Positions 29,849 through 52,874 of a DNA stretch of 52,874 nt are shown piece after piece; positions within the stretch are counted from its first letter, which is position 1; every line of letters begins with the position of its first letter. The translations under genes and the position numbers were made by a program. The DNA is from Nitrospiraceae bacterium. GTDB lineage: Bacteria; Nitrospirota; Thermodesulfovibrionia; Thermodesulfovibrionales; UBA1546. The notes beneath the pieces were generated by a model that was not told the DNA's origin, made no database searches, and saw only the letters and a list, made by a program, of their open reading frames with translations. Location of the stretch: assembly GCA_003599795.1 (NCBI GenBank), contig QZJQ01000049.1, positions 1-52,874 of the forward strand, in the 5' to 3' direction.

Positions 29849-29899
29849 AAAAAGAGCCTTTCCGTAGAGGAAGGTGAGGATGAAGTGAATCAGGGTGCA

Positions 29900-29942: not shown

Positions 29943-29952
29943 GGGGGGTGAA

Positions 29953-30456: not shown

Positions 30457-30465
30457 GGGGAAGAA

Positions 30466-31521: not shown

Positions 31522-31548
31522 AGTCCAGAGTTAGGAGTTGCGGGCAAA

Positions 31549-34587: not shown

Positions 34588-35591
34588 TAGGCCCCATAGA
34601 CCTGCTTTTCGCGTTTATCGTCGACCTTGCCATCGGCGACCCCAAATGGCTGCCTCATCCGGTGCGGATGTTAGGGGCTGCGATAAATAAAACAGAAGGC
34701 TTTCTCCGAAAAGAGATTACAACTCCCTCCGAAGAAAAGACAGCCGGCATACTGCTTGTTTTGATAATCACAATTCCCGCATATGTGATTACATACGTGG
34801 TTGCTAAGGTAATTTTGTGGGGCTCGCACGGAGTGTTTATGCTGATAGGCATGCTTCTCCTTGTTTATATCACATCCACAACACTTGCGCTCAGGGAACT
34901 TGTGAGATCCGCGCGGCTTGTAATTGAATCCGTTAAGGATAACAGCCTTCCCGCAGCCAGAAAAAAACTGGCTATGATCGTGGGACGCGATACAGGAGAG
35001 CTTTCCGAGGAAGGCGTATTGAAGGCAACAGTGGAAACCCTTGCTGAAAATCTGTGTGACGGAGTGATTGCGCCTTTGTTTTATCTTGTCATCGGAGGCC
35101 TGCCTCTCGCAATAGCGTATAAGGCGATAAACACTCTGGACTCTATGGTTGGATACAAGAATGAGCGCTATTTGAATTTCGGCAGGGCTGCCGCGAAACT
35201 CGACGACATCGCCAATTATATTCCGGCAAGGATTACAGGCCTTCTAATCGTTGCAGCGGTCTTCCTGGTATTTCTTTTCAAAAACCCGGATAATGCCGCT
35301 TCTGCTGCTGAAAATTCTTTCCGGATAATGAGACGGGACGGAAGAAAACATTCAAGCCCGAACAGCGGCATACCCGAAGCAGCCGCAGCAGGAGCGCTTG
35401 GACTAAGGCTTGGCGGCCCATCAACATACGGCGGGGTAGTAGTCGAAAAACCATTTATTGGAGATGAGGCATCCAGTCAGCATTATCTGAAAGCATCCGA
35501 AGATACTATCAGAGTCGTGAAAGTTGCCTCTCTTATCGGCCTAACACTGGCTATCACAGCTCTTATACTAAAGACAATAATAAAGGCATGA
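34584..35591 (+). CDS. cbiB: Adenosylcobinamide-phosphate synthase
   Basis: DLAIGDPKWLPHPVRMLG; DGVIAPLFYLVIGGLPLAIAYKAINTLDSMVGYKNERY. Confidence 0.97.
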   Translation: MIGPIDLLFAFIVDLAIGDPKWLPHPVRMLGAAINKTEGFLRKEITTPSEEKTAGILLVLIITIPAYVITYVVAKVILWGSHGVFMLIGMLLLVYITSTTLALRELVRSARLVIESVKDNSLPAARKKLAMIVGRDTGELSEEGVLKATVETLAENLCDGVIAPLFYLVIGGLPLAIAYKAINTLDSMVGYKNERYLNFGRAAAKLDDIANYIPARITGLLIVAAVFLVFLFKNPDNAASAAENSFRIMRRDGRKHSSPNSGIPEAAAAGALGLRLGGPSTYGGVVVEKPFIGDEASSQHYLKASEDTIRVVKVASLIGLTLAITALILKTIIKA

Positions 35592-36706
35592 AAAATAACA
35601 ATTTTAAATTAGGGTTTTTGAATCACATCCACGGAGGCAATATTTACAGCGCCGCGCAGTGCCTGAATATTCCGGAAAAAGAGATTGTAGATTTCAGCGC
35701 GTCAATCAATCCCCTCGGCGTACCGAAGAGCGCGATTTCAGCCATAAGGCATGACGCAAAGTATTTGTATAATTATCCCGACCCTGACGCTAAAAAATTA
35801 AGGCTGCAGATTTCAGGACAATATAAAATAAACCCGGAATCAATTATATGCGGCAACGGGAGCACAGAATTGATTTACCTTGTTGCCCGCGCCTTGAGGC
35901 CTGAGAGGGTGCTTATCCCTGCGCCGACATTCTCTGAGTATGAAAGGGCGTGTAAGAGTTATGAGTTAAAAGTTAGGAGTTATGAGTTAAGAAGAGAAAA
36001 TAATTTTGAGATAAGCCCTGACGAATTAATAACAGCGCTCTCACGCCTCACGTCTCACGCCTCACGTCTCACGCATTGTAATATGGCTTTTCTATGCAAT
36101 CCTAATAATCCTACAGGCAGGACGCTTAAAAAAGCTGATGTGATGAAAATTGCAAATGCAGCAAAAAAACTTAAATGCTATCTCGTTGTTGACGAGGCAT
36201 TTATGGATTTTACGCCAAAGGAAAGCGTAATCAAAGAGACTGAGAAAAATCCATATCTGATAGTCTTGCGGTCGCTTACAAAATTTTATGCGCTCTCAGG
36301 CTTAAGAATTGGATATGGAGTGTTTCCGTTAAATATTACTGAAACAGTAAAAAAGCATAAAGAGCCGTGGACAATAAATACCCTTGCACAAACAACAGGG
36401 ATTGCAGCCTTCAGGGATATTGAATATAAGAGAAGAACTTTCAAGTTAATCAAACAGGAAAAAGATTTTCTGGAAAAGGAATTCAAAAGACTGGAGATTA
36501 GCTACATTCCGTCAGAGGCAAATTATTATTTATTAAAACTAAATAACGCAAGAAAGATAGTATCAGCATTGAGAAATAAGAGAATCCTCGTAAGGGATTG
36601 TTCTAATTTCACGGGGCTTGACGGCTCGTATATCAGGGTTGCGGTCAAATCAAGAAAAAACAATATGCGGTTAATAGGGGAGCTTGGGGAACTATGCGGG
36701 GCTTAG
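35588..36706 (+). CDS. cobD: Threonine-phosphate decarboxylase / HisC-like aminotransferase
   Basis: HGGNIYSAAQCLNIPEKEIVDFSASINPLGVPKSA; SLTKFYALSGLRIGY PLP lysine; in the cobalamin operon. Confidence 0.9.
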   Translation: MKNNNFKLGFLNHIHGGNIYSAAQCLNIPEKEIVDFSASINPLGVPKSAISAIRHDAKYLYNYPDPDAKKLRLQISGQYKINPESIICGNGSTELIYLVARALRPERVLIPAPTFSEYERACKSYELKVRSYELRRENNFEISPDELITALSRLTSHASRLTHCNMAFLCNPNNPTGRTLKKADVMKIANAAKKLKCYLVVDEAFMDFTPKESVIKETEKNPYLIVLRSLTKFYALSGLRIGYGVFPLNITETVKKHKEPWTINTLAQTTGIAAFRDIEYKRRTFKLIKQEKDFLEKEFKRLEISYIPSEANYYLLKLNNARKIVSALRNKRILVRDCSNFTGLDGSYIRVAVKSRKNNMRLIGELGELCGA

Positions 36707-38160
36707 TGATAGCAGGCACTCATAGCGGGTGCGGAAAAACGACAATAACGCTCGGGCTTATGGCTGCCCTGACGAAAAGAGGGCTGAAAGTCCAGCCGTT
36801 CAAGGCCGGCCCTGATTTCATTGACACAGGGCTCCACAGGCTTGTTACAGCCAGACATTCAAGAAACCTTGATATATGGATGTGCGGTGAGAAATATGTC
36901 AAAGAATGTTTTCATAAGTACGCAGCAAATGCTGACATATCAATCATCGAAGGCGTTATGGGAATGTATGACGGTGAATACAGCACTGCAAGGCTGGCAG
37001 GATTTCTTAACCTGCCTGTAATTTTAGTTGTTGACGCCAGCGGCATGGCCGAGAGCGCAGGAGCGGTGGTTGCAGGGTTTAGGGATTGGGGATTTGGGAT
37101 TAGTAAAAAAGCTAACCCCCAGCCCCTAACCCCTAATCCCTTAGCGGGTATTATCTTCAACCGCGTTGCTTCAGAGAGGCACTACGAAAGACTTAAAAAT
37201 AGCGTTTGTGATATTAAGGTTTTAGGCTATCTGCCAAGGGAGTTAGATTTTGAGATTCCTCACAGGCATCTTGGGCTGACTGTCGCGGAAGAAAACCCTG
37301 TTGCTGATGAAAATATAGAAAGGCTTGCGGATGCGGTATTGGAGCATATTGATGTGGACAAGATTTTAAATATAGCGCAACAGAGCAGTAGAGCACCAGA
37401 GCAGCAGAAAAATGCTACTGCGCTACTGCGCTGCTGTTCTACTGCTCCAAAAATTGCTGTTGCATATGACAAGGCCTTCTGCTTTTATTATGAAGACAAT
37501 CTGGATTTATTGAGAGGTGCAGGCGCAGAGATAGTTACGTTCAGTCCGCTTTCGGATAACAAAATTCCTGAGGCTGTTAACGCACTATACATCGGCGGAG
37601 GCTATCCTGAGCTTTATGCAAAGGAACTGTCCCAAAATACATCTATGATGGAATCAATTAATAACTGGGCCCTTTCAGGCAAGCCGATATATGCTGAATG
37701 CGGCGGGCTGATGTATCTGTCAAAAGGGATTTATGATTTTGACGGAAAATTTTTTGAAATGGCTGGGGCCTTTCCTTTTGAGACAGAGATGAAAAAGGGA
37801 AGAGCGCATCTTGGCTATAGAGAGATTCTATTAAATGAAGACTGCATCCTCGGTAAAAAAGGTAAAAAATTAAGGGGGCATGAGTTTCATTATTCTGAGA
37901 TAGTTAAGCGCCAAGCGAAGCCGGAGGGGACTGTCCCAGATTTACGGATGGAGCGAGGCGGAGTCGTAGAATCGGGACTGTCCCCGTCGGCAAGAAGAGT
38001 GACTATAGACAAAGTCTATTCTGTCAGAAACAATCATGGCGAGTTTGTTAACTCATCAGGCTATAAATTTAAAAACACACTCGCAAGTTATATTCACATG
38101 CACTTTGGAAGCAGTCCCGAAATTGTGCGGAATTTCCTAAATCACATAAAGGAGCAGTAA
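36694..38160 (+). CDS. cbiA: Cobyrinate a,c-diamide synthase
   Basis: VIAGTHSGCGKTTITLGLMAAL...VQPFKAGPDFIDTG; ECGGLMYLSKGI. Confidence 0.96.
   Translation: MRGLVIAGTHSGCGKTTITLGLMAALTKRGLKVQPFKAGPDFIDTGLHRLVTARHSRNLDIWMCGEKYVKECFHKYAANADISIIEGVMGMYDGEYSTARLAGFLNLPVILVVDASGMAESAGAVVAGFRDWGFGISKKANPQPLTPNPLAGIIFNRVASERHYERLKNSVCDIKVLGYLPRELDFEIPHRHLGLTVAEENPVADENIERLADAVLEHIDVDKILNIAQQSSRAPEQQKNATALLRCCSTAPKIAVAYDKAFCFYYEDNLDLLRGAGAEIVTFSPLSDNKIPEAVNALYIGGGYPELYAKELSQNTSMMESINNWALSGKPIYAECGGLMYLSKGIYDFDGKFFEMAGAFPFETEMKKGRAHLGYREILLNEDCILGKKGKKLRGHEFHYSEIVKRQAKPEGTVPDLRMERGGVVESGLSPSARRVTIDKVYSVRNNHGEFVNSSGYKFKNTLASYIHMHFGSSPEIVRNFLNHIKEQ
37074..37143. repeat. In-frame GGGATTG/CCCCTAA palindromic repeat in cbiA
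   Basis: agggattggggatttgggattag...ctaacccccagcccctaacccctaatccctt. Confidence 0.9.
37381..37448. repeat. In-frame 8-nt periodic AGAGCAGC/CTACTGCG palindromic repeat in cbiA
   Basis: cagagcagtagagcaccagagcagcag...ctactgcgctactgcgctgctgttctactgctcc. Confidence 0.85.
37926..37985. repeat. REPIN-like palindrome copy 1, in cbiA
   Basis: ggggactgtcccagatttacgg...cgtagaatcgggactgtcccc. Confidence 0.9.
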
Positions 38161-39215
38161 TGGAAAGCATAATACTGATAGGGCACGGCAGCCCAAAAAA
38201 AGATGCGAACAACATAGAGACAATTGGAAGGCTTTTGCACGGCATGATTCATCCGGATTGCAGCAAAGGATGTGTAAGGGTTGCATATCTGCAGTTTGCA
38301 AAGCCTGAGTTGCCGGATATGATTAAAGAGAGTGTTTTAAGCGGAGCTAAAAAAATAATAATTCATCCCTATTTCCTTATCAGCGGAATGCATGTAACAA
38401 AAGACATCCCTGAAATGATAAAGAAAGCTAAAAAAATGTATCCTGATGTTGAATTTATTTACACGGAGCCTCTCGGCATTCACGAAAAACTGGTTCAAGT
38501 AATAGCTGAAAGGATTAAAACAGCCGGTGCTCTGATGCCAGCGGAGATTGAAGAGAAGAGTTTTGAAATCCTCTCCGGTGAAACAGATTTAAGCGATGTT
38601 CCTCAGGAACAAGTGCCAATTATAAAACGTGTGATACATACCACTGCGGACTTTGAATTTAAGAAGACTCTCCTTTTTCATCCAGGCGCTATAACCACAG
38701 GAATCAATGCTATAAAGTCAGGCAAAGACATTCTTACTGACGTTGAAATGGTGAAGGCAGGAATAAATAAAAAACTGCTAAAGAAATGGGGCGGAGAGGT
38801 GATATGCAACATACAGCAATCAGCAGGGGACTGTCCCAGATTTACGGACGAAGCGAAGCGAAGTCGTAGAATCGGGACTGTCCCCGTGGAACAGGACAAC
38901 AAAACAAAAGCAGAGACGGGAATTGAGTCAGTGTTAAAAGAAAAGAATAACATAGGAATTATTGCCATAGGAAACGCACCCACTGCCTTACTGAAAGCAA
39001 TTGAAATCTTTAATCATGAATCACACATCGTGCATCGTGCATCCTTGCCACTCCTTATCGGCGTTCCTGTTGGTTTTGTTAAGGCGCTTGAATCAAAGGC
39101 ATTACTCTCAACACAGCATTTTCCTTTTATTACTAATTTGAGCAGAAAAGGCGGAAGCCCTGTGGCAGCGGCTATAGTTAATGCGCTATTAAAAACAGCG
39201 GAGGAAACCAAATGA
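38160..39215 (+). CDS. Fused sirohydrochlorin cobaltochelatase-like (CbiX) and precorrin-8X methylmutase (CbiC)
   Basis: N-term ILIGHGSPKKDANNIE (CbiX); C-term FEILSGETDLSDVPQEQVPIIKRVIHTTADFEF and IAIGNAPTALLKAIE (CbiC). Confidence 0.93.
   Translation: MESIILIGHGSPKKDANNIETIGRLLHGMIHPDCSKGCVRVAYLQFAKPELPDMIKESVLSGAKKIIIHPYFLISGMHVTKDIPEMIKKAKKMYPDVEFIYTEPLGIHEKLVQVIAERIKTAGALMPAEIEEKSFEILSGETDLSDVPQEQVPIIKRVIHTTADFEFKKTLLFHPGAITTGINAIKSGKDILTDVEMVKAGINKKLLKKWGGEVICNIQQSAGDCPRFTDEAKRSRRIGTVPVEQDNKTKAETGIESVLKEKNNIGIIAIGNAPTALLKAIEIFNHESHIVHRASLPLLIGVPVGFVKALESKALLSTQHFPFITNLSRKGGSPVAAAIVNALLKTAEETK
38826..38885. repeat. REPIN-like palindrome copy 2, in cbiX-cbiC
   Basis: ggggactgtcccagatttacggacgaagcgaagcgaagtcgtagaatcgggactgtcccc. 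Confidence 0.9.
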
Positions 39216-39970
39216 AAATTAAAAATTATGGAATATTTTTACTATTCACTGTTCACTATTCACTATTCACTGCCTCTGACGTTCATGCAATGCATATCTC
39301 TGAGGGCATACTGCCATTTAACTGGGCATTGCTCTGGTCTGCTATCGCAGTTCCGTTTGTAGCATGGGGATTATATAAGCTCAAGAAACTCTCTTCAATT
39401 GACCTTTCATTTAAACCCCTTGTTGGGCTCATGGCTGCCGTTGTATTCATTATTTCGTGCATGCCTGTGCCAGTACCCACAGCAGGCACATGCTCTCATC
39501 CTGCAGGAACGGGAATATCAGGGATACTTGTCGGACCCGCAATAAGCATACTTGTTACAGCAGTTGCTCTGTTGATTCAGGCCCTTTTCCTTGCTCACGG
39601 AGGCTTAAGCACATGGGGCGCTGATATAGTTTCCATGGGAGTTATGGGCTCATTCGCCGGATTCTTAACTTTCAAGGTATTACGTTTGATAAAGGTGAAT
39701 ATTGCAGTTTCAGGATTTATGGCAGGCCTGCTTGCTGACTGGGCAACATACTTCACAACATCTGTTGAACTCGCATCAGGCATAAAAGGAGATTCGGCAT
39801 TCATGCCGCTTTTCTGGAAGATACTTATCGCATTTATTCCGACTCAGCTTCCACTGGGAATCCTTGAAGGCGCAATGACAGCAGGCATGGTTACACTGCT
39901 TTACAAGAAAAGGCCTGACCTTCTGGTAAAGATGCGGGTAATCAAGGCAGCGGAGGTGACAGCAATATGA
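39212..39970 (+). CDS. cbiM: Cobalt ECF transporter S component
   Basis: Signal peptide then MHISEGILPFNWAL; PVPVPTAGTCSHPAGTGISGILVGP. Confidence 0.96.
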   Translation: MKIKNYGIFLLFTVHYSLFTASDVHAMHISEGILPFNWALLWSAIAVPFVAWGLYKLKKLSSIDLSFKPLVGLMAAVVFIISCMPVPVPTAGTCSHPAGTGISGILVGPAISILVTAVALLIQALFLAHGGLSTWGADIVSMGVMGSFAGFLTFKVLRLIKVNIAVSGFMAGLLADWATYFTTSVELASGIKGDSAFMPLFWKILIAFIPTQLPLGILEGAMTAGMVTLLYKKRPDLLVKMRVIKAAEVTAI

Positions 39971-40296
39971 AAATTCAAAATTCAAAGTTCAAAGTTCAGA
40001 GTTGCGGAATATTTTTTTTGCTGCTCTGCTGCTCTGCTGCTCTGCTGTTCTTTTTCAGCCTTCAGCCTTCAGCTTTCAGCGCTGAAAAGTCTGAAAAATG
40101 GCAGGGCGTTGACGAATCTGTAATTGAAAAGGTTGCAAAAGAGCATGGCAGAGAGGCGAAGGAGCCGTTCATTAATACAGATCAGGGCGACCTGCTTCTT
40201 TTTGTCTTTCTCCTGGCAGGCACAATAGGAGGCTTTGCAGCAGGATATTATTGGAAAGAACTGACTGGAAATAAAGGACAAAAAGTAAAAGAATAA
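39967..40296 (+). CDS. cbiN: CbiN-like small membrane component
   Basis: Signal peptide plus one TM (DLLLFVFLLAGTIGGFAAGYYW) between cbiM and cbiQ; assignment by position. Confidence 0.7.
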   Translation: MKIQNSKFKVQSCGIFFLLLCCSAALLFFFSLQPSAFSAEKSEKWQGVDESVIEKVAKEHGREAKEPFINTDQGDLLLFVFLLAGTIGGFAAGYYWKELTGNKGQKVKE

Positions 40297-40301
40297 AGAG
40301 C

Positions 40302-41054
40302 ATGGAAATCTTTAGCGAATACTTCAAAAAAGATAATTTGCTTTCGCAGGTTGACGCGAGGGTAAAACTTGGCGTCAGCCTTTTTGTTTTGGCAATGGTA
40401 TTGAGCTATAAAGGGCTTGTGTTCCCTCTGCTCATATTAGGCATAAGCCTTTGTATCTGTATTAGGATAAAGGTTCCGCTGAGAGTGTTTCTTCTGAGAT
40501 TTTCAGAGCCTGTGTTTATCGCGTCTGTTGTGATATTGCTTAAATTCCTGTTTTCAGGACAGGAGACTATGTTCTCAATAGAGATGTGGGGCATCACAAT
40601 AACAGGACACAAAGACGGGCTTATGGATGGACTGCAAATCGGCAGCAGGATTTTAGGGGCTGTCTCTATTGTCGCTTTATTAGGTTTTTCTACCCCATTT
40701 ACAGAGATAATGGCAGGGTTGTCATGGCTTAAAATCCCAAAGGGCCTTATAGAAATATCGCTGTTTGCCTACAGATATATCTTTGTGCTTTTTGAAGATG
40801 CGATGGTCATATATAACGCACAGAAAAACCGTCTTGGTTATTCCAATATTAAGCGGGGGTTACGCTCATTCGGAACCTTGACAGGCTCGCTGACACTCAA
40901 GGCGTTTGAGCACAGCCAGAACACAACAACTGCAATGCTTCAGAGGGGCTATGACGGCAACATTCCGATGTTGAAACACAAACCGTTCAAGTTTTCAGAA
41001 GTAGCAGTCTCAATTTTATTAGTATTTGCAATGGGGCTTGTATGGCAGATTTAA
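40302..41054 (+). CDS. cbiQ: Cobalt ECF transporter T component
   Basis: DARVKLGVSLFVLAMVLS; AQKNRLGYSNIKRGLRSFGTLTGSLTLKAFEHSQNTTTAMLQRGYDG. Confidence 0.95.
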   Translation: MEIFSEYFKKDNLLSQVDARVKLGVSLFVLAMVLSYKGLVFPLLILGISLCICIRIKVPLRVFLLRFSEPVFIASVVILLKFLFSGQETMFSIEMWGITITGHKDGLMDGLQIGSRILGAVSIVALLGFSTPFTEIMAGLSWLKIPKGLIEISLFAYRYIFVLFEDAMVIYNAQKNRLGYSNIKRGLRSFGTLTGSLTLKAFEHSQNTTTAMLQRGYDGNIPMLKHKPFKFSEVAVSILLVFAMGLVWQI

Positions 41055-41887
41055 AGATAAGATTGTCTGTTCAAATCAATTCATTTAAATATCCTGACGG
41101 AACACAGGCATTGTCTGATATTGAGGTTAATATCTCGCATGGAGAATTTATCGGCATACTGGGCTCAAACGGCTCGGGGAAAACAACACTGCTTAAAATA
41201 ATGGACGGCTTAATGAAAGATTTTGAAGGCAGCGCGTATCTTGACGGGGCTGATATAAAAAAACTTTCCCCAAAAGAGATTTACAGCAAGGCCGGCCTCG
41301 TCTTTCAAAATCCGGATGACCAGCTTTTCGCTCCTACTGTATTTGAGGATGTGGCATTCGGCCCGATAAACATGGGGTTCAGGGAAGATGAGGTCATTAC
41401 CCGTATAAATAACGCCCTTAAGGATGTTGATATGCAAGAATACGCAAAAAAGTCCATACATAACCTTAGCTTCGGGCAGAAAAAAAGGGTATGCATAGCA
41501 GGGCTTCTGGCAATGGGGCATGAGATACTGCTTCTTGACGAGCCTACAGCCGGATTAGATCCCATGGGAGAATATAAAATGATGAATCTGCTTACAGGGC
41601 TGAATAAAGACAAGGGCGTTACAATCGTCATGGCCACGCACAGCGTTGACCTTGTTCCCCTGTTTCTTGACCGGCTTTATATCTTAAGCAAGGGCTGCAT
41701 AGTCCGGAGCGGCATTCCCGAAGAGGTGTTTACAGCGCCTGATGACATGGCGAATGTGAGACTGCGGCTTCCCCAGATCGCAGAATTAATATACAAACTA
41801 AGGCATGAAGACAATATGCCGTTTGAGAAAATCCCTCTCACCATCGGTGAGGCAAGAAGAGAGATACTGAAAACTCTCAGATCATGA
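41042..41887 (+). CDS. cbiO: Cobalt ECF transporter ATPase
   Basis: GSNGSGKTTLLKIMDGL, LSFGQKKRVCIAGLLAM, ILLLDEPTAGLDP. Confidence 0.97.
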   Translation: MADLKIRLSVQINSFKYPDGTQALSDIEVNISHGEFIGILGSNGSGKTTLLKIMDGLMKDFEGSAYLDGADIKKLSPKEIYSKAGLVFQNPDDQLFAPTVFEDVAFGPINMGFREDEVITRINNALKDVDMQEYAKKSIHNLSFGQKKRVCIAGLLAMGHEILLLDEPTAGLDPMGEYKMMNLLTGLNKDKGVTIVMATHSVDLVPLFLDRLYILSKGCIVRSGIPEEVFTAPDDMANVRLRLPQIAELIYKLRHEDNMPFEKIPLTIGEARREILKTLRS

Positions 41888-41907
41888 GTGAAAGGAGGTG
41901 AAGAAAT

Positions 41908-42048
41908 TTGAACAGTCCAAAAAAAGGGACTAAAAAAAGGGCAAAAGCCAGCGTCATATCGTACCATCTCAAATGCACAAAGACGGCTAATGGTTTGACC
42001 CACTTTGTGATGTACGGGGATGTTCCGAAGAAGAAGCTGCCTTTGTAG
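41908..42048 (+). CDS. 46-aa basic peptide, candidate substrate (CbpA-like precursor) of the downstream radical SAM enzyme
   Basis: AAAGGAGGTGAAGAAATTTG then TTG-start ORF MNSPKKGTKKRAKASVISYHLKCTKTANGLTHFVMYGDVPKKKLPL*; not in ORF track. Confidence 0.7.
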   Translation: MNSPKKGTKKRAKASVISYHLKCTKTANGLTHFVMYGDVPKKKLPL

Positions 42049-42061
42049 GATTTTGTAATGC

Positions 42062-42169
42062 AGGGGCGTATGCAATACGCCCCTGTCATTTCCGAGAAAA
42101 CGGGAGTCCAGATGCTGTCACTATGCAACTCTGGGTTCCTGCTTTCTCGGGAAAGACAATAAATAACAA
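42062..42169. repeat. Two inverted repeats between the peptide ORF and the radical SAM gene
   Basis: aggggcgta-tgcaa-tacgcccct, then ttccgagaaaacgggagtccaga...ctctgggttcctgctttctcgggaa. Confidence 0.7.
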
Positions 42170-42188
42170 TACGAAAGGGAGATCACAA

Positions 42189-43526
42189 ATGAAAAACAAT
42201 AATCGCGGACTTTCATTCTCTGACATTAATGCCGGCTGGAAACTTGCGCTTGACGCCGACAATGTATTCTGGGGTCTTGCGCCCAAAAATGATAATGGCG
42301 GCTTCCTGCTGCCGGAAGACCTGATAAAACTGTACAACGATAAAAAGGCTCACCTTGACAAAGAGCTTCACGATTTCAGATTTAATGCGGATTTAAACTG
42401 CGTATACATAGACCCTACTGACAGATGTAATGCAAACTGCACATACTGTTATATCCCTGCCAAAATAAGAAAACAGGGCACGCAGATGACAGGTAAGGAG
42501 CTCAATACTGCATTGGAAAAGATTGCAGCACATTTCAAAGATTCAAGAAAAAAACCCGTAATCGTCTTTCATGCCGCTGAGCCTCTGTTGGTGAAAGATA
42601 TACTGTTTGACTCCATAAAAAAATTCAGCAACAAGTTTGTTTTCGGCATTCAGACAAATACGCTCCTTCTTGAAAAAAAGGACGTGGAGTTTATGAAAAA
42701 ATACAGGGTAGGCGTAGGCATATCGCTTGATGCGCCTGACGCAAAAACAAATAATCTGTCAAGGGTGGCAGTAAAAGGCGGCGGTAATTTTGACAAGGCT
42801 GTTCAGGCATTGGATTGGTTTAAAGGTTATGAGGGGTTGAATGTGATCTCAACTGTCACAAAATTCAATGTCAACAAGCTTTCTGAGCATGTAAAATTCC
42901 TCCATAAAAAAGGAGTGCCGTGCATACTTTTAAACCCTGTCCGCGTGACGCAAAAACAGGCATTAAAACAGAAACCTGATGAAAAAGAATTTGCAAAGGA
43001 ATTAATAAAGGCCGTTGAGACAGCGATTGATTTGACAAAAAAATCCGGCAGGCAGATCGTTGTGGGCAACTTTGCAAATGTTATTCTCGCAATAATATCG
43101 CCTGCTGCTAGGCGCATGATGTGTGACATCTCCCCTTGCGGCGGAGGCAGGACATTTCTTACAATCACTGCAAACGGCGATATGGTTCCTTGCGGCGAGT
43201 TTATCAGCTTCAAAGAATTTTCAGGAGGAAATATCTTCAAGACATCAATTGAAAAAGCGATGAACTCAAAGCCATTTAAAACAATCAGGGCAAGGACTGT
43301 GGAGAAGATTGATGAATGCAGAGCCTGCGATTTCAGGCATATATGCGGCTCGCCATGCCCTGCTGAGATGTATGCGAGAGGCAATATGTACAGAAAGGCT
43401 GAGTTTTGCGAGTTTTACAAAGAGATGATAAGATATGCTTTTAAATTGATATCTGAAGATAAGGTTCCATATCTTCTCAGAGAAGGCTCTCTGCAGCAGA
43501 TGCAGTATGAGTACAGGTATGCATAA
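42189..43526 (+). CDS. Peptide-modifying-type radical SAM/SPASM enzyme (CbpB-like)
   Basis: DRCNANCTYCYI (CxxxCxxC) and Cys-rich C-terminus CDISPCGGGRTFLTITANGDMVPCGEF...CRACDFRHICGSPCP...CEFY; start ATG 42189 after GGGAG, not 42123. Confidence 0.9.
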   Translation: MKNNNRGLSFSDINAGWKLALDADNVFWGLAPKNDNGGFLLPEDLIKLYNDKKAHLDKELHDFRFNADLNCVYIDPTDRCNANCTYCYIPAKIRKQGTQMTGKELNTALEKIAAHFKDSRKKPVIVFHAAEPLLVKDILFDSIKKFSNKFVFGIQTNTLLLEKKDVEFMKKYRVGVGISLDAPDAKTNNLSRVAVKGGGNFDKAVQALDWFKGYEGLNVISTVTKFNVNKLSEHVKFLHKKGVPCILLNPVRVTQKQALKQKPDEKEFAKELIKAVETAIDLTKKSGRQIVVGNFANVILAIISPAARRMMCDISPCGGGRTFLTITANGDMVPCGEFISFKEFSGGNIFKTSIEKAMNSKPFKTIRARTVEKIDECRACDFRHICGSPCPAEMYARGNMYRKAEFCEFYKEMIRYAFKLISEDKVPYLLREGSLQQMQYEYRYA

Positions 43527-44037
43527 AGGCTATATACAGGTTTACACAGGCAGCGGAAAGGGCAAAACCACAGCATCCCTGGGCCTTGCTTTAAGGGCAG
43601 CAGGCGCGAGGCTTGAGGTTTTTATTGCACAGTTTATCAAACAGCGTAAATGCAGCGAACACAAGGCCCTTGAAAGACTGAAAGATTTAATAACCATAAA
43701 GCAATACGGGAAAGGCTTTATTCTTAAAAGGGCTCCTGATGAAGGTGATGTAAAAGCAGCGCAGGACGGATTTGAAGAAGTAAGCAATATTGTCAGTTCC
43801 GGCAAGTATGACGTGGTAATTCTTGACGAAATAAATGTAGCTGTAAAATACAATCTCGTTTCTATAAAAGACCTGTTGAAGATTATGGACGCAAAGGCAA
43901 AAGGCACAGAGCTTATAATCACAGGCAGATATGCTCACAAAAAAGTTATACAAAAAGCTGACCTTGTCACTGAAATGAAAGAGGTGAAGCATTATAAAAG
44001 TAAAGGAGTCAAGGCAAGACGTGGCATCGAAAAATAA
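43507..44037 (+). CDS. cobO: Cob(I)yrinic acid a,c-diamide adenosyltransferase
   Basis: YIQVYTGSGKGKTTASLGLALRAAG; YDVVILDEINVAVKY. Confidence 0.96.
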   Translation: MSTGMHKGYIQVYTGSGKGKTTASLGLALRAAGARLEVFIAQFIKQRKCSEHKALERLKDLITIKQYGKGFILKRAPDEGDVKAAQDGFEEVSNIVSSGKYDVVILDEINVAVKYNLVSIKDLLKIMDAKAKGTELIITGRYAHKKVIQKADLVTEMKEVKHYKSKGVKARRGIEK

Positions 44038-45271
44038 AAAATTGCGCTCAGGCTATACAACCGGAGCCTGTGCAGCAGCAACAGCAAAGGCAGCGGCAAT
44101 GCTCTTATTAGGGATTAGGGACTGGGGATTGGGGATTGGTATAAATTATACTAACCCCCAACCCCTAACCCCTAACCCCATTGATGTTGAAATTCCCTTT
44201 CCTGATGGAAGCCGGCATAAATTCAGGATACAGAATTCAGGATACAGAACAGAAGATAAAACCGCATGGGCTTCGGTTATAAAAGATGCCGGCGATGACC
44301 CTGATGTCACAAATGGAGCAGAGATAGTTGCAGAGGCCAGGATACAAGATGCAGGATACAGGATGCATGATAAAAAAGAACTCGCATCGTGCATCATGCA
44401 TCATACATCAGTGGAAATAAAGGGCGGTAAGGGAGTCGGCATAGTCACAAAACCGGGGCTGACAATACCTGTTGGTGAAGCGGCTATAAATCCGGTGCCA
44501 AGGAGAATGATAAAAGAAGCTGTGATGGAAGCACTCAGTAATCAACAAGGAGGGGACTGTCCCATATTTACGGGCGCAGCCGTAGAATCGGGACGGTCCC
44601 CGACATCAGCAATTGAGATAATAATTTCAGTCACTGACGGCGAAAAGCTTGCTAAAAAAACGCTGAACTCACGTCTGGGCATAATCGGCGGAATTTCCAT
44701 ACTCGGAACAACCGGCATCGTAAAGCCGATATCCTCAGAGGCATGGACAGCAACCATCACATCATCAATGGATGTCGCTAAAGCAATGGGACGCAGTGAG
44801 ATAGTATTGTCTGCGGGAAGGTCATCAGAAAAAGCTCATATGAATAAATTCAACCTCCCACAGGAATCTTATGTGATGATGGGTGATTATCTTGAATTCG
44901 CACTGCTTGGGGCAAAAGAACATGGATTTAAAAAAATACATCTCTGCGCTCAGTGGGCAAAGATGCTGAAGATTGCTATGGCAACACCACAGACTCATGT
45001 AAGGCACGGGGCAATTAATATAAAAAAGGCAGTGGAGTTTTTGAAGGGATTGGGGGTTAGAGATTTGGGATTAGTTCAAGAATTCAATACTGCGATGGAA
45101 ATTTTTAATTTCATTCAGCACTCAGCACTCAGCACTCAGCACTCAGCACTTTTTTCTAAAGTTTGTGTTGCCGCTAAAAAATATGCAGAAAGCATTTCAT
45201 CAGGAATCCCTGTTATTTCATATCTTGTATCGTATGAAGGAGAGATAATTGCAAACAGTGAACAGAGTTGA
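44021..45271 (+). CDS. cbiD: Cobalt-precorrin-5B C1-methyltransferase
   Basis: LRSGYTTGACAAATAKAAA; GVGIVTKPGLTIPVGEAAINPVPRRMI; several in-frame repeats. Confidence 0.96.
   Translation: MASKNKKLRSGYTTGACAAATAKAAAMLLLGIRDWGLGIGINYTNPQPLTPNPIDVEIPFPDGSRHKFRIQNSGYRTEDKTAWASVIKDAGDDPDVTNGAEIVAEARIQDAGYRMHDKKELASCIMHHTSVEIKGGKGVGIVTKPGLTIPVGEAAINPVPRRMIKEAVMEALSNQQGGDCPIFTGAAVESGRSPTSAIEIIISVTDGEKLAKKTLNSRLGIIGGISILGTTGIVKPISSEAWTATITSSMDVAKAMGRSEIVLSAGRSSEKAHMNKFNLPQESYVMMGDYLEFALLGAKEHGFKKIHLCAQWAKMLKIAMATPQTHVRHGAINIKKAVEFLKGLGVRDLGLVQEFNTAMEIFNFIQHSALSTQHSALFSKVCVAAKKYAESISSGIPVISYLVSYEGEIIANSEQS
44108..44179. repeat. In-frame GGGATTG/CCCCTAA palindromic repeat in cbiD
   Basis: ttagggattagggactggggattggggattgg...actaacccccaacccctaacccctaacccc. 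Confidence 0.9.
44338..44409. repeat. In-frame CAGGATA/GTGCATCATGCATC palindromic repeat in cbiD
   Basis: caggatacaagatgcaggatacaggatgcatgat...cgcatcgtgcatcatgcatcatacatc. Confidence 0.9.
44552..44601. repeat. REPIN-like palindrome copy 3 (shorter loop), in cbiD
   Basis: ggggactgtcccatatttacgggcgcagccgtagaatcgggacggtcccc. Confidence 0.9.
45115..45150. repeat. Tandem 7-nt repeat (cagcact)n in cbiD
   Basis: cattcagcactcagcactcagcactcagcactcagcactttt. Confidence 0.9.
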
Positions 45272-45295
45272 CATTTGTCATACAACTGATTACAA

Positions 45296-45805
45296 TTGAA
45301 TTGCATGATAATCTTTGATGCATCAACATTAATTCTTCTTGCAAAAATAGATTTGCTGGAATTGTTTATATCCAATTTTCAGGAGAAGGTTTTAGTGCCT
45401 GAGAGCGTTGCTTTAGAAGTTGCCCAGGCAGGATACGAGGATTCTCCCCTCATATTGAAGTTGATTAAGAATAAAAAAATAAGCATTTTAAAAACTAAAA
45501 ACAAGCGGCAGTCAGATAAGCTTATGATCGATTTTAATATAGACCAAGGCGAGGCAGACGCGATAAGTCTTGCTATTCAGGAGAATATGCGTTTTATTGC
45601 GACAGATGATAGGAATGCGATAAGGGCATGCAAAATATTAAAAATTGAGTTTATTACTGCCATAGCTATTTTAATAAGGGCATTTGAAAAACAACTCATT
45701 GATAAAAATGAGGCTCTTTTAAAATTACAACGGCTTGAATCTATAGGCAGATATGGCAAGGCAATAATTGCTGATGCGGAAAAACAAATAAAAGGAGGAA
45801 TTTAA
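45296..45805 (+). CDS. PIN-domain (DUF3368-like) putative toxin
   Basis: MIIFDASTLILLAKIDLLELF; DQGEADAISLAI; FIATDDRNAIRACK. Confidence 0.88.
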   Translation: MNCMIIFDASTLILLAKIDLLELFISNFQEKVLVPESVALEVAQAGYEDSPLILKLIKNKKISILKTKNKRQSDKLMIDFNIDQGEADAISLAIQENMRFIATDDRNAIRACKILKIEFITAIAILIRAFEKQLIDKNEALLKLQRLESIGRYGKAIIADAEKQIKGGI

Positions 45806-45806
45806 A

Positions 45807-46106
45807 ATGGCAACAAAAACTCTAAGTATACGTGTGGACGACAATGACTATAAATTCTTATCTCATCTTGCAAAAGAAGAAAAAGAGGATGTTTCAAAAG
45901 CCGTCAGAGAGCTTGTTGACCTTGGCAGGGTAATGCTCGCTATAGAAAAATATAAAAAATCCGAGGCATCTATCGAAAAGGCTGCAAGAATAGCAGGGGT
46001 TTCCATCTCAAAAATGATGGACATATTCCAGGACTACGGGGTTGAGGCAAATCTGGAGCACGAGGACTATCTGGCATCTCTCAAGAGCATGAGAAAGGTG
46101 TGGTAA
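45807..46106 (+). CDS. UPF0175-family putative antitoxin
   Basis: 99 aa helix-rich; SIEKAARIAGVSISKMMDIFQDYGVEANLEHEDYLASL. Confidence 0.85.
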   Translation: MATKTLSIRVDDNDYKFLSHLAKEEKEDVSKAVRELVDLGRVMLAIEKYKKSEASIEKAARIAGVSISKMMDIFQDYGVEANLEHEDYLASLKSMRKVW

Positions 46107-46174
46107 GTTACGCATATTAAGCAAACTGTTGTTTGTGAATAAGCTATTTTCTCTTTTATTAGAAACCAAAAAGT

Positions 46175-47449
46175 GTGAGCAAACTCTACGTCATAGGAAT
46201 CGGTTACAAGCCCCTTGATAAAAGGGCACGAGAGATTATTGCCGGCTCTCAGGTAATCCTGGCTTCCAAAAGGCTCTTTGAGGTTTTTAAGGGATATAAA
46301 GAATATGAGGCGGTTAAAGACAAGATACAAGTAATAAACAATGTGGACGAAACAATAAAATTCATTCACTCGTCCCTCGTTGCTCGTCCTTCGTCATTCA
46401 TTACCCTCTTCGCCTCAGGCGACCCGACGTTTTTCGGAATCGGCAGGAGAGCGATCAGGGAATTCGGAAAAGATATGGTTGAGATATTCCCTGATTTATC
46501 AAGCATTCAGATCGCATTCTCACGAATAAAAGAATCATGGGATGATGCATTTTTAATGAGCCTTCACGGGGGGCCTGACCCTGAAAAGAGAAGAAGGCTG
46601 CCATATGAGATAACCGATATTCCTTCTTTACTTCAAAAATATCCCAAAATCGCAATCCTCACTGACAAAGAAAACAATCCTTCAGCGATCTCAAAAGTTC
46701 TAATCCTATCGCCTATTGCCCATAGCCTATTGCCTGTTATGTATGTCTGCGAAAAACTCGGCTATCCCGATGAAAAAATAACAGAAGGCGCGCCTGAAGA
46801 GATTGCAGGGATGACTTTTGAAACTCCGAATGTAGTGATAATAAAGTCAGCAGTCAGCAGTCAGCAGTCAGCAGTCAGCTTTGGATTGAAGGAAAATGAA
46901 ATCATTCATTCAAGGGGACTTATTACTAAAGATGAAGTTAGGGCCGTAACCATTCACAGGCTGAGGCTTCCTCAAAGAGGCGTGCTATGGGACATAGGCG
47001 CAGGCTCGGGTTCTGTGTCAATTGAAGCTGCAAGGCTGTATCCTGAGCTGAAAGTATTTGCTATTGAAAAAAACGAGGAGCAAATTAAAAACATCAAAGA
47101 GAACAGGATTAAATTTGATGCAACCAATATTGAAACAATAAAAGGACCGGCGCCTGATGTTTTGATAAACCTCCCGGCCCCGGACAGGGTTTTCATAGGA
47201 GGCAGCGGAGGGAAACTTAAAGATATAATTGGGTTAATCGCCAAGATGCAAACTGCAATTATTGTGATAAATGCCGCAACAGTTGAGACTCTCAACATTG
47301 CCGTCGCTGGACTTCAAAGAAACGGGTTTCTTGTTGATGTCTCACAGGTCTCTGTTTCCAGAATGAAAAAGATTGGAGAGGGCAGCAGCTTTTCGGCTCT
47401 GAACCCTGTTTTTGTTATAACCGGAGAAAAACTTTCATCGGGCATTTAA
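46175..47449 (+). CDS. Bifunctional precorrin-6Y methyltransferase/decarboxylase (CbiE-CbiT fusion)
   Basis: N-term LYVIGIGYKPLDKRARE...FASGDPTFFGIG; C-term LPQRGVLWDIGAGSGSVSIEAARL. Confidence 0.94.
   Translation: MSKLYVIGIGYKPLDKRAREIIAGSQVILASKRLFEVFKGYKEYEAVKDKIQVINNVDETIKFIHSSLVARPSSFITLFASGDPTFFGIGRRAIREFGKDMVEIFPDLSSIQIAFSRIKESWDDAFLMSLHGGPDPEKRRRLPYEITDIPSLLQKYPKIAILTDKENNPSAISKVLILSPIAHSLLPVMYVCEKLGYPDEKITEGAPEEIAGMTFETPNVVIIKSAVSSQQSAVSFGLKENEIIHSRGLITKDEVRAVTIHRLRLPQRGVLWDIGAGSGSVSIEAARLYPELKVFAIEKNEEQIKNIKENRIKFDATNIETIKGPAPDVLINLPAPDRVFIGGSGGKLKDIIGLIAKMQTAIIVINAATVETLNIAVAGLQRNGFLVDVSQVSVSRMKKIGEGSSFSALNPVFVITGEKLSSGI
46845..46879. repeat. Tandem 7-nt repeat (cagcagt)n in cbiE-cbiT
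   Basis: agtcagcagtcagcagtcagcagtcagcagtcagc at the CbiE/CbiT junction. Confidence 0.9.
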
Positions 47450-47462: not shown

Positions 47463-48401
47463 ATGCTGCTTAGAATCGGGCATCTTTCAACTTTTTATCA
47501 TACGGCAATCATTCTGATGGCAAGGGCCGATACAAACTCAAGGCTTGGCGTAGAGATTGACTGGAGGCTCTTCGGCACAGGCCCTGCAATTGCGGATGCG
47601 TTCGACAAAGGCGAACTTGATATTGCATATATAGGGCTTCCTCCCGCGATTATTGGCATAAACAGAGGTATAAATATAATCTGTGTTGCGGGCGGACATG
47701 TCGAAGGCACGGTAATTTCAGGCAAAAAAGAACTTAAGGGCTTTCCTGATGAAGCAGATATGAATAATATCCTAAGCCAGATTAAAGGCGGAAGGATCGG
47801 GGTTCCGGGAAAAGGCTCTATTCATGACGTAATTCTTCAAGACTGCCTTGAGAAATTTAATCTTAAAAAAGAAGTAGCCGTCATAAACTTTCAGTGGGCT
47901 GATATGATTCCGGAGGCAATGGTTAAGGGAGAAATATCTGTCGCATTTGGAACCCCTGCCCTTGCTGCTGCGATAAAGCGCTATGCCGGCGGAAAGATAC
48001 TCTATCCGCCCTCAATGCTCTGGCCGAATAACCCGAGTTATGGGATTATTGCTGATAAGAAATTTCTGAATAAAGAAAAAGCTGTGGTTGAGCAATTTCT
48101 GATGCTCCACGAAGAGGCAACAGCTTTTATAAGAAATAAACCTGGAGAGGCATCAAGGTTAATTGCTGATTATATCGGCTTTATAGACAAAGAACTTCTC
48201 CTTGATACTCTTAAGATATCTCCCAAATACTGCTCAAAAATCACCGAAGGCTATATATCTTCTACAGTGGCATTTGTGAAAGCGCTTAAGCGGCTCGGCT
48301 ACATAAACAGGGAAATTTCAGAGAATGAGATATTTGACTTATCCCTTATAGAAAAGCTTCATCCTGAAAAAGAGCATTATAGTGATGGAATCTCGGCTTA
48401 A
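47463..48401 (+). CDS. NMT1/SsuA-type substrate-binding-fold protein without obvious signal peptide
   Basis: LRIGHLSTFYHTAIILMARA...IDWRLFGTGPAIADAFDKGELDIAYIGLPPAIIGI. Confidence 0.85.
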   Translation: MLLRIGHLSTFYHTAIILMARADTNSRLGVEIDWRLFGTGPAIADAFDKGELDIAYIGLPPAIIGINRGINIICVAGGHVEGTVISGKKELKGFPDEADMNNILSQIKGGRIGVPGKGSIHDVILQDCLEKFNLKKEVAVINFQWADMIPEAMVKGEISVAFGTPALAAAIKRYAGGKILYPPSMLWPNNPSYGIIADKKFLNKEKAVVEQFLMLHEEATAFIRNKPGEASRLIADYIGFIDKELLLDTLKISPKYCSKITEGYISSTVAFVKALKRLGYINREISENEIFDLSLIEKLHPEKEHYSDGISA

Positions 48402-48437: not shown

Positions 48438-49028
48438 ATGCCAAAGAAAAAGAAGCATTTACCCATACCGCCTAAAACTCCGTTTGGAAGAAACAGGCTA
48501 TACGATGAATCTCAGAAGGATATTCCCCTTACTGCTGACAGGATGGCTGAGGCAATGGCAAGTGGAAGAATAGAAGATTTTTTCCGGAGCGAACTTCCGC
48601 AAGGCGAACATGCGAAAAAACTTGCTTCCATGATGATGGGAATGACAGGGATGATGCCGCCTGAGGGCTTTATGGAAAAAACTGAAAAGAAAGAGGGAGT
48701 TCCTTCTCTGCAAATACCGCCTGAAGAGGTCACAAACGCGGTCCATGCAGGAGATGTTAAGGCCCTTATAGAACTTCTTAAAAGGGAGCACAAAAAAAGA
48801 ATGCCTGAAACAGATATTGGGCATGATGAGAAAAAAGAAAAACATAAAAAACACAGCGAAAAAAAGAGGAATAAGACAGAAGATGCCCCTGCAGTCTCTG
48901 CACCTGAAAAAGAAGTCCTTGACTCGCTCATGAAAATCGCATCAGAAAATAGTGCCTCAATTGACTGGCTGATGCTTAGGGCTCTTAAACTTTATATAGA
49001 AGAGTATGAGAAAACCGGAAGGCTTTAG
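48438..49028 (+). CDS. Hypothetical charged protein, 196 aa
   Basis: Good upstream AGAGGTG; Lys-rich linker; no recognised domain. Confidence 0.6.
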   Translation: MPKKKKHLPIPPKTPFGRNRLYDESQKDIPLTADRMAEAMASGRIEDFFRSELPQGEHAKKLASMMMGMTGMMPPEGFMEKTEKKEGVPSLQIPPEEVTNAVHAGDVKALIELLKREHKKRMPETDIGHDEKKEKHKKHSEKKRNKTEDAPAVSAPEKEVLDSLMKIASENSASIDWLMLRALKLYIEEYEKTGRL

Positions 49029-50155
49029 GTCTTTATAAACCCCATCACCTGTTTCTTATTCACCAGATGATGTAATGAAATATTTAGCACGTCCCTGTTT
49101 CCGGAGACAGCAAGTGCATGAATGAATCTGATGCCTTTGCCTCTCCTTTTCATTGCATTAATCAGCTCTTTCTTTGTAGCTGCCTTTACCGTATCCTTAA
49201 TCCCGAATCCCTTTGCAGTTATCTCAAGGTCAACGCATGCTCCCGTAAGAGTCGGCTGGTTTCCTGTGGAGCCGTATACTTTGTTGTCTATTGCTAAGAT
49301 TGTGAGATTCCCGGGCGCAAGACAGGCTGCTGTTGCAAGTGTGCCCGGATTCATCAAGAGGCTTCCATCTCCGTCTATGACTACAACTTCTTTTTTTGAT
49401 GAAAGGGCAACACCAAGTCCGATGGGAGTTGTCATGCCCATGCTTCCAAGCATATAGAAATTTGATGGCTGATGTTTTACATGAAAAAGCTCTTTAGCGG
49501 GAAACCCGAGATTGCAGACAACTATTTTTTCTGAAAGATACGGCGCAATAATTTTAAGTATTTCATAACGTGTGTATTTTGGAGAAGTTGCGGGTTGCAG
49601 ACTGCAAGTTAAAAATGGCTTCTTGACCCGCTCCCTAACCCCTAACCCCTGACCCCTGACCCCTGCATTTTCCCATATCTCTGGACTTAAAAGAAATGCA
49701 TGAATCATGTTCTTTGCATAAACATTTCTAAGCTTTTTCCCTATTACTCTAAAATCATCTCTTTTGCTGATAACCGAATAACTTATCCCTGCTCCTTTTA
49801 AAATCATCGGCAGCCTCTGTCCCATCGGAAGCTGAGCGGCAATCTTTTCCTTGTAAATACCCCTTTGGCTCACGAATATCGCAAGAGGAAGCCGATAGAA
49901 GCCTGTGAGAGACAAGAGGGCATTTATCATATTCCCTATGCCAGAACTCTGCACAAACATTGCAGGCTTCTTGCCTGAGAGCGCAGCGCCTGCTGATATT
50001 CCAACCCCTTCCTCTTCTCTTGTAAGCGGAACATGGAAAAAACTGTCCTCAACCATTTCAAGAAGTGTTTTTATCTTCTCGCACGGAAGCGACGAAGTGA
50101 AATCAACTCCGTTATTTTTCAATATTCCTATGAGTTCTTCTTCAGGACCGGGCAT
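49025..50155 (-). CDS. comDE: Sulfopyruvate decarboxylase-like, fused alpha-beta (ComDE-type ThDP enzyme)
   Basis: LTREEEGVGISAGAALSGKKPAMFVQSSGIGNMINALLSL (alpha) and LGSMGMTTPIGLGVAL...VVIDGDGSLLMNPGTLAT (beta, ThDP). Confidence 0.85.
   Translation of the reverse strand: MPGPEEELIGILKNNGVDFTSSLPCEKIKTLLEMVEDSFFHVPLTREEEGVGISAGAALSGKKPAMFVQSSGIGNMINALLSLTGFYRLPLAIFVSQRGIYKEKIAAQLPMGQRLPMILKGAGISYSVISKRDDFRVIGKKLRNVYAKNMIHAFLLSPEIWENAGVRGQGLGVRERVKKPFLTCSLQPATSPKYTRYEILKIIAPYLSEKIVVCNLGFPAKELFHVKHQPSNFYMLGSMGMTTPIGLGVALSSKKEVVVIDGDGSLLMNPGTLATAACLAPGNLTILAIDNKVYGSTGNQPTLTGACVDLEITAKGFGIKDTVKAATKKELINAMKRRGKGIRFIHALAVSGNRDVLNISLHHLVNKKQVMGFIKT
49584..49671. repeat. In-frame CCCCTAA/CCCCTGA repeat at the alpha/beta junction of comDE
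   Basis: ccctaacccctaacccctgacccctgacccctg. Confidence 0.85.
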
Positions 50156-51390
50156 AAAAGCTCCTCTATCTCCTTATCTGTAATCTTCTTTGATATCACC
50201 TGCGGTTGAACATTATAAGTCTTTTTCTCCTGTCCGAGTTTCTTTTCGCCGCCGCCCGTGATATTAAGAAGAATCACTTCGTCCTTTTTAACTATACCAT
50301 CCTTCACGGCATTAATCAGGGCACTTACCGCAACCCCTGATGCAGGAACAATATCAATCCCCTCAATATTTTCAAAAATATCCATTGCCTTATAAACCTC
50401 TGAATTGCTTACTCCATGCATCCTTCCCTTTGTTGCCTTCAAAGCATCATAAACACCGCCTTTTATGGAATATGCCGGATAGCGTGTGGACAAAACCCTG
50501 GTAGTTATTTTCCCTATGAGCTCAGGCCTCAGGTCAACAGGAGAAAGCTCCCTGCTTTCCTTTTCCCACGCATTTTTCATGGGAGTGAAAGGCTCGTTCT
50601 GCGCAAGATGCAAAACAGGGAGTTTTGAACCGAATCTCCCATCCCTTAAAAACCTCTCTGACATCTCCCACACACCAATCGCGCCTGTCCCGCTTCCCAC
50701 AGCCTGAAAATAATGGTCAGGCAGTCCCTTCATCGCTGAAACTGCCTCAAGAAGAACAATGCCGAGCCCGTCTCTTTTTGCAATATTTTTTACCCCTCCC
50801 TCAAAAGGAAACCCGACTGCCTGTGCAATTCTCCTTGCAACATCAATGGAATCCGAATAATCGCCATCGCCGACTGCAAGGGTGGGGATAAGCGATGAGC
50901 TTTCGAGATACCACATCTCGGCAAGGCACATTGTCGGAACGACTATGACAACAGGAAATCCTGAAACTATTGAGAGATGCGCAAAGGCCCTTGCTGTATT
51001 TCCTGCTGAAGCGACAATCAGCCCCTGGACATCATTCTCCCTTGCATTCTGAAGTACAACTGCAGCCTCAAACTCCTTGAATGTGCAGGTCTGAAGTGAA
51101 GCGCCCTTTTCAGGCCAGAAACCATTGAATGCTATATAGAGGTTCTCAAGCCCTAAATGTCTTGAAAGTTTCTCTGATTTATAAACCAAAGTTCCGGACT
51201 GTTCAAAATCCGTTCCATGCACCGGAATCCAGTTAAATCTCCATATTCCCTTCTTTTCATTGTCCTCACTGAATCTTTCATCTTTATACTCAGTTACAAG
51301 CAGCGCATCCTTGCAGTGCTCGCAAAATGCGCAATAAACCTCTCTCAGTTCCTTGCTGCAATGCCTGCATTTGATATTAAAATGGCTCAT
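50128..51390 (-). CDS. Cysteate synthase-like (threonine synthase-family PLP enzyme)
   Basis: NLYIAFNGFWPEKGASLQTCTFKEFEA, VASAGNTARAFAHLS, YFQAVGSGTGAIGVWE, YSIKGGVYDALKAT, LNITGGGEKKL; strongly resembles remembered Methanosarcina cysteate synthase. Confidence 0.85.
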   Translation of the reverse strand: MSHFNIKCRHCSKELREVYCAFCEHCKDALLVTEYKDERFSEDNEKKGIWRFNWIPVHGTDFEQSGTLVYKSEKLSRHLGLENLYIAFNGFWPEKGASLQTCTFKEFEAAVVLQNARENDVQGLIVASAGNTARAFAHLSIVSGFPVVIVVPTMCLAEMWYLESSSLIPTLAVGDGDYSDSIDVARRIAQAVGFPFEGGVKNIAKRDGLGIVLLEAVSAMKGLPDHYFQAVGSGTGAIGVWEMSERFLRDGRFGSKLPVLHLAQNEPFTPMKNAWEKESRELSPVDLRPELIGKITTRVLSTRYPAYSIKGGVYDALKATKGRMHGVSNSEVYKAMDIFENIEGIDIVPASGVAVSALINAVKDGIVKKDEVILLNITGGGEKKLGQEKKTYNVQPQVISKKITDKEIEELLCPVLKKNS

Positions 51391-51404
51391 GTCATTTCAC
51401 CTCT

Positions 51405-52640: not shown

Positions 52641-52874
52641 CGCGCCTTCTTGCGTCAATTATTGTTAAGGGCGCTGCAAATATATGGGCGGGCAAAAAAA
52701 TCAGGAAGATTAAACTCACTATGAGGTGAAAGAAAAAAAGCATACTCGCAGGCGGTTCAAGAATCTTAAAATAAAATATCCCTGTCATAAAGGCCTTTAT
52801 ATTAACTATATCTGCCGGTATAAAATTTTTCATGAGAAAACCCGATACAGCTATCAAAAAAAGAAGAGTTAAAA
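52606..52874 (-). CDS. HdrE/NarI-like membrane subunit, partial (5' end off the right edge)
   Basis: Frame open to edge (LTLLFLIAVSGFLMKNFI...); FFFHLIVSLIFLIFLPAHIFAAP with TM histidines; overlaps HdrD-like gene. Confidence 0.65.
   Translation of the reverse strand, partial: LTLLFLIAVSGFLMKNFIPADIVNIKAFMTGIFYFKILEPPASMLFFFHLIVSLIFLIFLPAHIFAAPLTIIDARRRDEGIEEVLHED

Follow-up and report, generated by a model that had tools for sequence, protein, structure and literature searches.

A peptide gene and a radical SAM gene in a cobalamin operon

The window, meaning the whole stretch of 52,874 nucleotides analysed here, carries a cobalamin operon on the forward strand, headed by a cobalamin riboswitch at positions 29588-29784 (RF00174, 83.1 bits). 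This is the sole cobalamin riboswitch detected in its own genome (1.4 Mb, 75%-complete), and a terminator-like hairpin follows it at 29899-29932. The ORF map continues with cobU, cobT, cobS, an alpha-ribazole phosphatase gene, cbiP, cbiB, a cobD-like gene, and cbiA (29917-38160). CobU matches PF02283 and the phosphatase has TIGR03162 as its best match, at 162.1 bits for a cut-off of 162.9; the other genes of this stretch were named from their sequence, without a profile match. Profile searches then identify a fusion of a cobaltochelatase-type CbiX/K domain with the precorrin-8X methylmutase CbiC (38160-39215, +) and the cobalt ECF transporter genes cbiM, cbiN, cbiQ, and cbiO (39212-41887, +), the CbiN match being weak (17.7 bits).

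The cbiO stop codon, at 41885-41887, is followed by a near-perfect Shine-Dalgarno sequence, AAAGGAGGTG (41891-41900, +), and by a TTG codon at 41908 that opens a frame encoding the 46-residue peptide MNSPKKGTKKRAKASVISYHLKCTKTANGLTHFVMYGDVPKKKLPL, with its stop codon at 42046-42048. The initial annotation had described this small gene, and direct reading confirms it. We name it cbpA (41908-42048, +), a cbpA-like precursor peptide gene, from the ORF reading and from its homologues. The TTG start and the near-perfect Shine-Dalgarno sequence recur at cbpA in the genus of the window, and AAGGAGGT lies 7-8 nt before the start in most relatives.

Two strong hairpins separate cbpA from the next gene (42061-42154, +; fold of -58.9 kcal/mol, z -7.3). 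They differ between relatives, and may lower the expression of cbpB with respect to cbpA or represent a palindromic element. We rejected a genome-wide repeat, as only one copy was found in its own genome.

The next gene, cbpB (42189-43526, +), for which the ATG at 42189 is the best start, encodes a radical SAM/SPASM peptide maturase of 445 residues. Its 3' end is overlapped by 20 bp by cobO/cobA, the corrinoid adenosyltransferase gene (43507-44037, +; NF004637 and TIGR00708 both above cut-off). The operon goes on with cbiD, a UPF0175-family toxin/antitoxin-like pair, and cbiET (44021-47449, +), with CbiD, UPF0175, and tetrapyrrole methylase matches. The insert between cbiD and cbiET (45296-46106) encodes a UPF0175 protein preceded by a 169-residue ORF, which looks PIN-like by eye and gave no Pfam match; the two are probably a toxin-antitoxin pair within the B12 operon. 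An NMT1/SsuA-like substrate-binding protein is encoded at the end of the operon (47463-48401).

The putative precursor peptide CbpA and its relation to TIGR04164

About 80 locus entries, duplicates among them, have a homologue of the peptide 5' of CbpB, and in essentially all loci with enough sequence it lies on the same strand, directly 5' of CbpB, which places the window peptide far beyond chance. This arrangement is seen in Nitrospirota, Nitrospinota, Omnitrophota, Planctomycetota, and archaea. In the alignment of 29 peptides, the N-terminus is short, variable, and lysine-rich, and conservation begins near residue 17 and continues to the C-terminus, including the core block SYHLKCTKTANGLTHFVMYGDVPKKKLPL (residues 18-46; 41959-42045, +). 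Across phyla, the only invariant residues are Met1, Cys23, Gly29, Leu30, and His32, with His or Arg found three residues N-terminal of Cys23 and Phe or Tyr right after His32. It had been proposed that a core of the type C-x-x-(T/A)-x-x-GLTHFV would be found beside homologous enzyme genes, with Cys, Thr, His, and Tyr named among the residues of the likely core; such cores are indeed present in relatives, and the Cys and His hold as invariant, but the Thr and Tyr positions do not. For the 21-codon core, pN/pS is 0.09 with synonymous sites near saturation, as calculated from 57 distinct coding sequences of the window's type (type 2). From these comparisons, we regard cbpA as a real, strongly constrained gene.

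The peptide and the enzyme are inherited together. Among 396 Nitrospirota genomes, CbpB was found in 38, CbpA in 39, and both in 37, which corresponds to about 10% of the sampled genomes for the pair and accounts for 37 of the 38 CbpB-positive genomes. The peptide is a conserved and co-inherited neighbour of the enzyme, and in this respect the initial annotation is supported. In the two genomes with CbpA alone, the gene sits where a contig ends, and we therefore rejected them as orphans. In the sole CbpB-only genome, the CbpB match begins at profile position 120, about 120 N-terminal residues being missing. One genome (G262) encodes two CbpA and two CbpB. The pair thus shows one hallmark of RiPP systems, a small putative precursor that adjoins its predicted modifying enzyme and is co-inherited with it.

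CbpA and CbpB are already known as family names in NCBIfam, and the names given in the initial annotation are real (TIGR04164 for the peptide and TIGR04163 for the enzyme). Assignment to these models succeeds for the enzyme (504.5 bits, for a curated equivalog cut-off of 375 bits) and fails for the peptide: the full window peptide matches no NCBIfam model, TIGR04164 included (none at E≤10), and its core alone, although correctly aligned in register, gives 12.3 bits (E 0.09), below the curated cut-off of 35 bits. The window peptide is therefore outside TIGR04164 as this model stands. Archetypal CbpAs score 47-63 bits, next to CbpBs that are about 42% identical to that of the window, and archaeal intermediates score 20.8 and 28.7 bits. 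In a profile-profile comparison (hhalign), the window-type peptides align with CbpA type 1 with a probability of 95.4 and an E-value of 1.9e-8. Given the scores of these bridging relatives and the profile-profile comparison, we consider the window peptide to be homologous to CbpA, as a divergent second type.

Both types share the register and the core motif [H/R]-x2-C-x5-G-L-[S/T/A]-H-[F/Y], as well as the cobalt/cobamide gene neighbourhood of the NCBIfam families, and they differ in the C-terminal extension, which is MYGDVPKKK(M/L)PL in the window type and ILMDKK in the archetypal one. The NCBIfam model in its present form does not detect peptides of the divergent type, and the core motif finds them. 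What is new here is this CbpA type that escapes the model, the core motif, the near-perfect co-occurrence, and an association with cobamide metabolism, salvage included, instead of cobalt transport. In the open-licence full-text literature, we found no paper on the CbpA/CbpB system, the matches to these names being unrelated proteins. The two NCBIfam families probably stem from Haft and Basu 2011.

The putative maturase CbpB

The window enzyme is assigned to CbpB on the basis of its TIGR04163 score, and it contains a radical SAM domain (PF04055, 60 bits) and a SPASM domain (PF13186, 41 bits). The CxxxCxxC motif that binds the SAM [4Fe-4S] cluster, CNANCTYC, occupies residues 80-87 (42426-42449, +), and its Cys80, Cys84, and Cys87 are invariant among 52 CbpB sequences. 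The SPASM region (43122-43409, +) contains Cys 312, 317, 335, 377, 380, 386, 390, and 407, invariant or nearly so in the same 52 sequences, and the pattern CX12GX4C...CX2CX5CX3C...C is complete. CbpB is therefore a radical SAM/SPASM protein by both motifs, and the early description of this gene, with its CxxxCxxC, its Cys-rich SPASM tail, and cobO right after it, proved accurate. Cys 80, 84, and 87 fit one SAM cluster, and, by analogy with anSME, Cys 312, 317, 335, and 390 on the one hand and Cys 377, 380, 386, and 407 on the other would bind two auxiliary clusters. Such full ligation of both auxiliary clusters by the eight cysteines argues against the binding of a substrate Cys to an open auxiliary cluster.

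In the CbpB tree, three groups are observed, archetypal, archaeal, and the type 2 of the window, with moderate supports and long branches. The window CbpB lies in a clade separate from the archetypes, which score about 700 bits against TIGR04163. In some Thermodesulfovibrionia (L062, L066), a Met and a Cys-rich stretch, MSKGC[TK]CGCSQGDVE, stand in frame 5' of the CbpB match and possibly form an N-terminal extension of CbpB.

The AF2 model of CbpB (pLDDT 89.3, pTM 0.90) has CteB, anSME, ChlB, TigE, and SuiB as its nearest solved folds, all of which are peptide- or Cys-modifying maturases. The closest solved structure is CteB, the SCIFF maturase (5why/5wgg; Foldseek E 1e-21), and the second-best NCBIfam family is the ranthipeptide maturase PapB (NF047865), where CbpB scores 137.3 bits for a cut-off of 340 and hence falls outside. 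CteB and PapB share with CbpB the SPASM domain and an invariant substrate Cys, but their substrates have several conserved Cys whereas CbpA has only one. anSME, which modifies a Cys or Ser of its substrate, resembles CbpB in its fold and in the layout of the eight SPASM-region Cys; nevertheless, CbpB scores only 119 bits against the anSME family (cut-off 349), and the putative substrate of CbpB is a peptide of 35-55 residues whereas that of anSME is a full-size protein.

The N-terminus of the CbpB model, ahead of the radical SAM core, consists of three strands and one helix, and gave no RRE match in Pfam. In the window, cbpA and cbpB lie in different frames, and we therefore modelled the complex from a relative (L036) with both genes in one frame, as a read-through product with an artificial linker. 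Here, the mean pLDDT of CbpA is 77 for residues 11-20 and 69 for residues 21-30 (57-77 for the peptide part overall), and residues 17-23 (ISYHLKC) form a strand with moderate confidence. The C-terminus of CbpB changes from a coil, when the enzyme is modelled alone, to a strand in the read-through model. The model, with its artificial linker, suggests a strand-type docking of CbpA on CbpB.

Link to cobamide metabolism and possible role of the pair

We analysed the 48 loci flanked on either side by 2.5 kb of sequence or more, a few of which represent the same genome and whose related species are not independent. In 43 of these, at least two co-oriented cobamide genes lie within 6.5 kb, and the same linkage is found in the riboswitch-headed operon of the window. 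The five exceptions are three archaeal loci (L087-L089) and two Nitrospirota loci of the archetypal type (L123, L124), and CbiC is encoded in all five genomes (the three archaeal ones, G174, and G021). In two of the archaeal lineages, winged-helix regulators of one kind (DUF7839) are encoded divergently from cbpA (L087, 4842-5651; L088, 4853-5644; minus strand). The commonest position of cbpAB is after cbiMNQO; elsewhere the pair closes a cbiETLFGH row, is flanked by nucleotide-loop genes, separates cobT from cobS (L018), or, for a type-1 pair of Planctomycetota (L130), lies between cbiC-like and cbiX-like genes 5' of cbiMNQO.

CbiC was not found in six of 21 chosen CbpAB genomes, including G211, G246, G330, G162, and G262. 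For G262, this is probably an assembly gap, since its contigs are cut inside the corrin genes. G211 has a salvage locus, with a periplasmic binding protein, a FecCD permease, an ATPase, CbiZ, CobO, and part of CobU, and G330 and G162 have only CbiX and nucleotide-loop genes, plus one tetrapyrrole methylase in G330, where CbiM was not found either. CbiD is a poor proxy, because CobF takes its place in some relatives; in L036 and some other close relatives, CobF (L036, 7859-8620; TIGR02434, 296 bits) stands where CbiD is expected. Since the pair also occurs in salvage and nucleotide-loop gene sets and is not always beside cbiMNQO, its link is with cobamide metabolism in general rather than with cobalt transport as such.

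The gene pair, its constraint, its co-inheritance, the enzyme class, and the genomic association with cobamide synthesis and salvage are observed. From these, we favour the explanation that cbpA-cbpB is a two-gene RiPP-type system of cobamide metabolism, the product of which may be a cobalt or corrinoid ligand, and we hold this explanation as a whole with moderate confidence. CbpA, with its short variable lysine-rich N-terminus and its near-invariant C-terminal core, would be the precursor, and it is very probably the substrate of CbpB. CbpB would bind it with the ISYHLKC segment lying as a beta-strand on the enzyme, as the docking model suggests, and would use SAM, one radical SAM cluster, and two auxiliary [4Fe-4S] clusters to install one defined change in the core. 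By comparison with CteB, anSME, and ChlB, the likeliest change would be a cross-link from Cys23, or an oxidation of Cys23, near GL[ST]H[FY], although the chances that a thioether or another Cys-based change is made are only about even.

The product would stay in the cell as a ligand or cofactor rather than act as an antibiotic: an intracellular location is probable given a core that is constant across phyla and the lack of an accompanying exporter, immunity, or dedicated protease gene. That it serves cobamide metabolism is likely, and a role as ligand of cobalt or corrinoids is plausible but tentative, His32 and the Cys site being most likely, in that case, to hold or hand over the metal or the corrinoid. 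Mature CbpA might then be a previously unrecognised peptide-derived ligand or cofactor for de novo cobamide synthesis and salvage, for instance a corrinoid or cobalt carrier generated from a small peptide by radical chemistry, which we put forward with the same reserve. The salvage-only cases tilt the ligand role towards corrinoids or late steps.

The PQQ, mycofactocin, and SCIFF systems also combine an invariant C-terminal core, a variable N-terminus, and a radical SAM partner, without export genes. The likeness of CbpAB to these systems is one of logic only; no peptidase or dehydrogenase partner was seen. B12 synthesis is deemed largely solved, yet CbpAB has accompanied the genes of this pathway across several bacterial phyla. 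Should cobalt or corrinoids be handled by the modified peptide, this would add a novel type of component to B12 metabolism and a further function to those of RiPPs.

The first of the more specific explanations, that the product targets the corrinoid itself, as a carrier or as a redox partner of the adenosylation or salvage steps (CobO, CobU/T/S) shared by de novo and salvage organisms, is one branch of our best explanation and has a sizeable, if minority, share of the probability. The common denominator of the locus types is the late cobamide genes (CobU, CobT, CobS, CobD, CbiP, CbiB, and CobO), cbpB overlaps cobO in the genus of the window, and the His could serve as an axial cobalt ligand. 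Nevertheless, cobO adjoins the pair only in close relatives of the window and a few others, and cbiD is the next gene in most Nitrospirota loci.

A role specific to cobalt uptake, in which the modified peptide would bind or sense Co2+ from CbiMNQO or carry it to CbiX/CbiK, is rather unlikely. The pair does lie directly after cbiO in most loci and, where cbiMNQO is not adjacent, sometimes beside cbiX or cbiXC (L096, L120, L126, L117), and Co2+ could plausibly be bound by the invariant Cys and His. However, CbiM is encoded in 207 of the 231 genomes of the class, most of them lacking CbpAB, which indicates that cobalt uptake does not require the pair, even if the comparison discriminates little, with CbiM encoded almost throughout the class. 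Moreover, CbpAB is kept in G211, G246, G330, and G162, where CbiC was not detected, nor CbiM in G330, and in the G211 salvage locus it accompanies an ABC importer of the FecCD/periplasmic-binding-protein type, CbiZ, and CobO. The cobalt-transport-specific role initially considered is thus not supported.

A secreted peptide, bacteriocin or signal, present in the B12 operon by happenstance, is very improbable: such products are common from SPASM maturases, but the CbpA core is nearly invariant across phyla instead of hypervariable, and the neighbours in the loci examined include no recurrent exporter, protease, or immunity gene. Least probable of all is that CbpB, which resembles an enzyme acting on a full-size protein, matures another protein while the short ORF encodes a leader peptide with a regulatory role or is there by chance, given the strong amino-acid constraint on CbpA at saturated synonymous sites, the co-occurrence and the joint duplication in G262, and the same CbpA motif beside CbpBs that are just about 41% identical.

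Beyond the cobalamin operon, the minus strand of the window (49025-52658) encodes a cysteate synthase (TIGR03844, 469 bits for a cut-off of 325), adjoined by a sulfopyruvate decarboxylase-like fusion, whose alpha part is above and beta part just below cut-off, and then by a TfrB/HdrD-like Fe-S protein (51405-52658). These genes possibly indicate that a member of Nitrospirota has a biosynthesis of the coenzyme M type.
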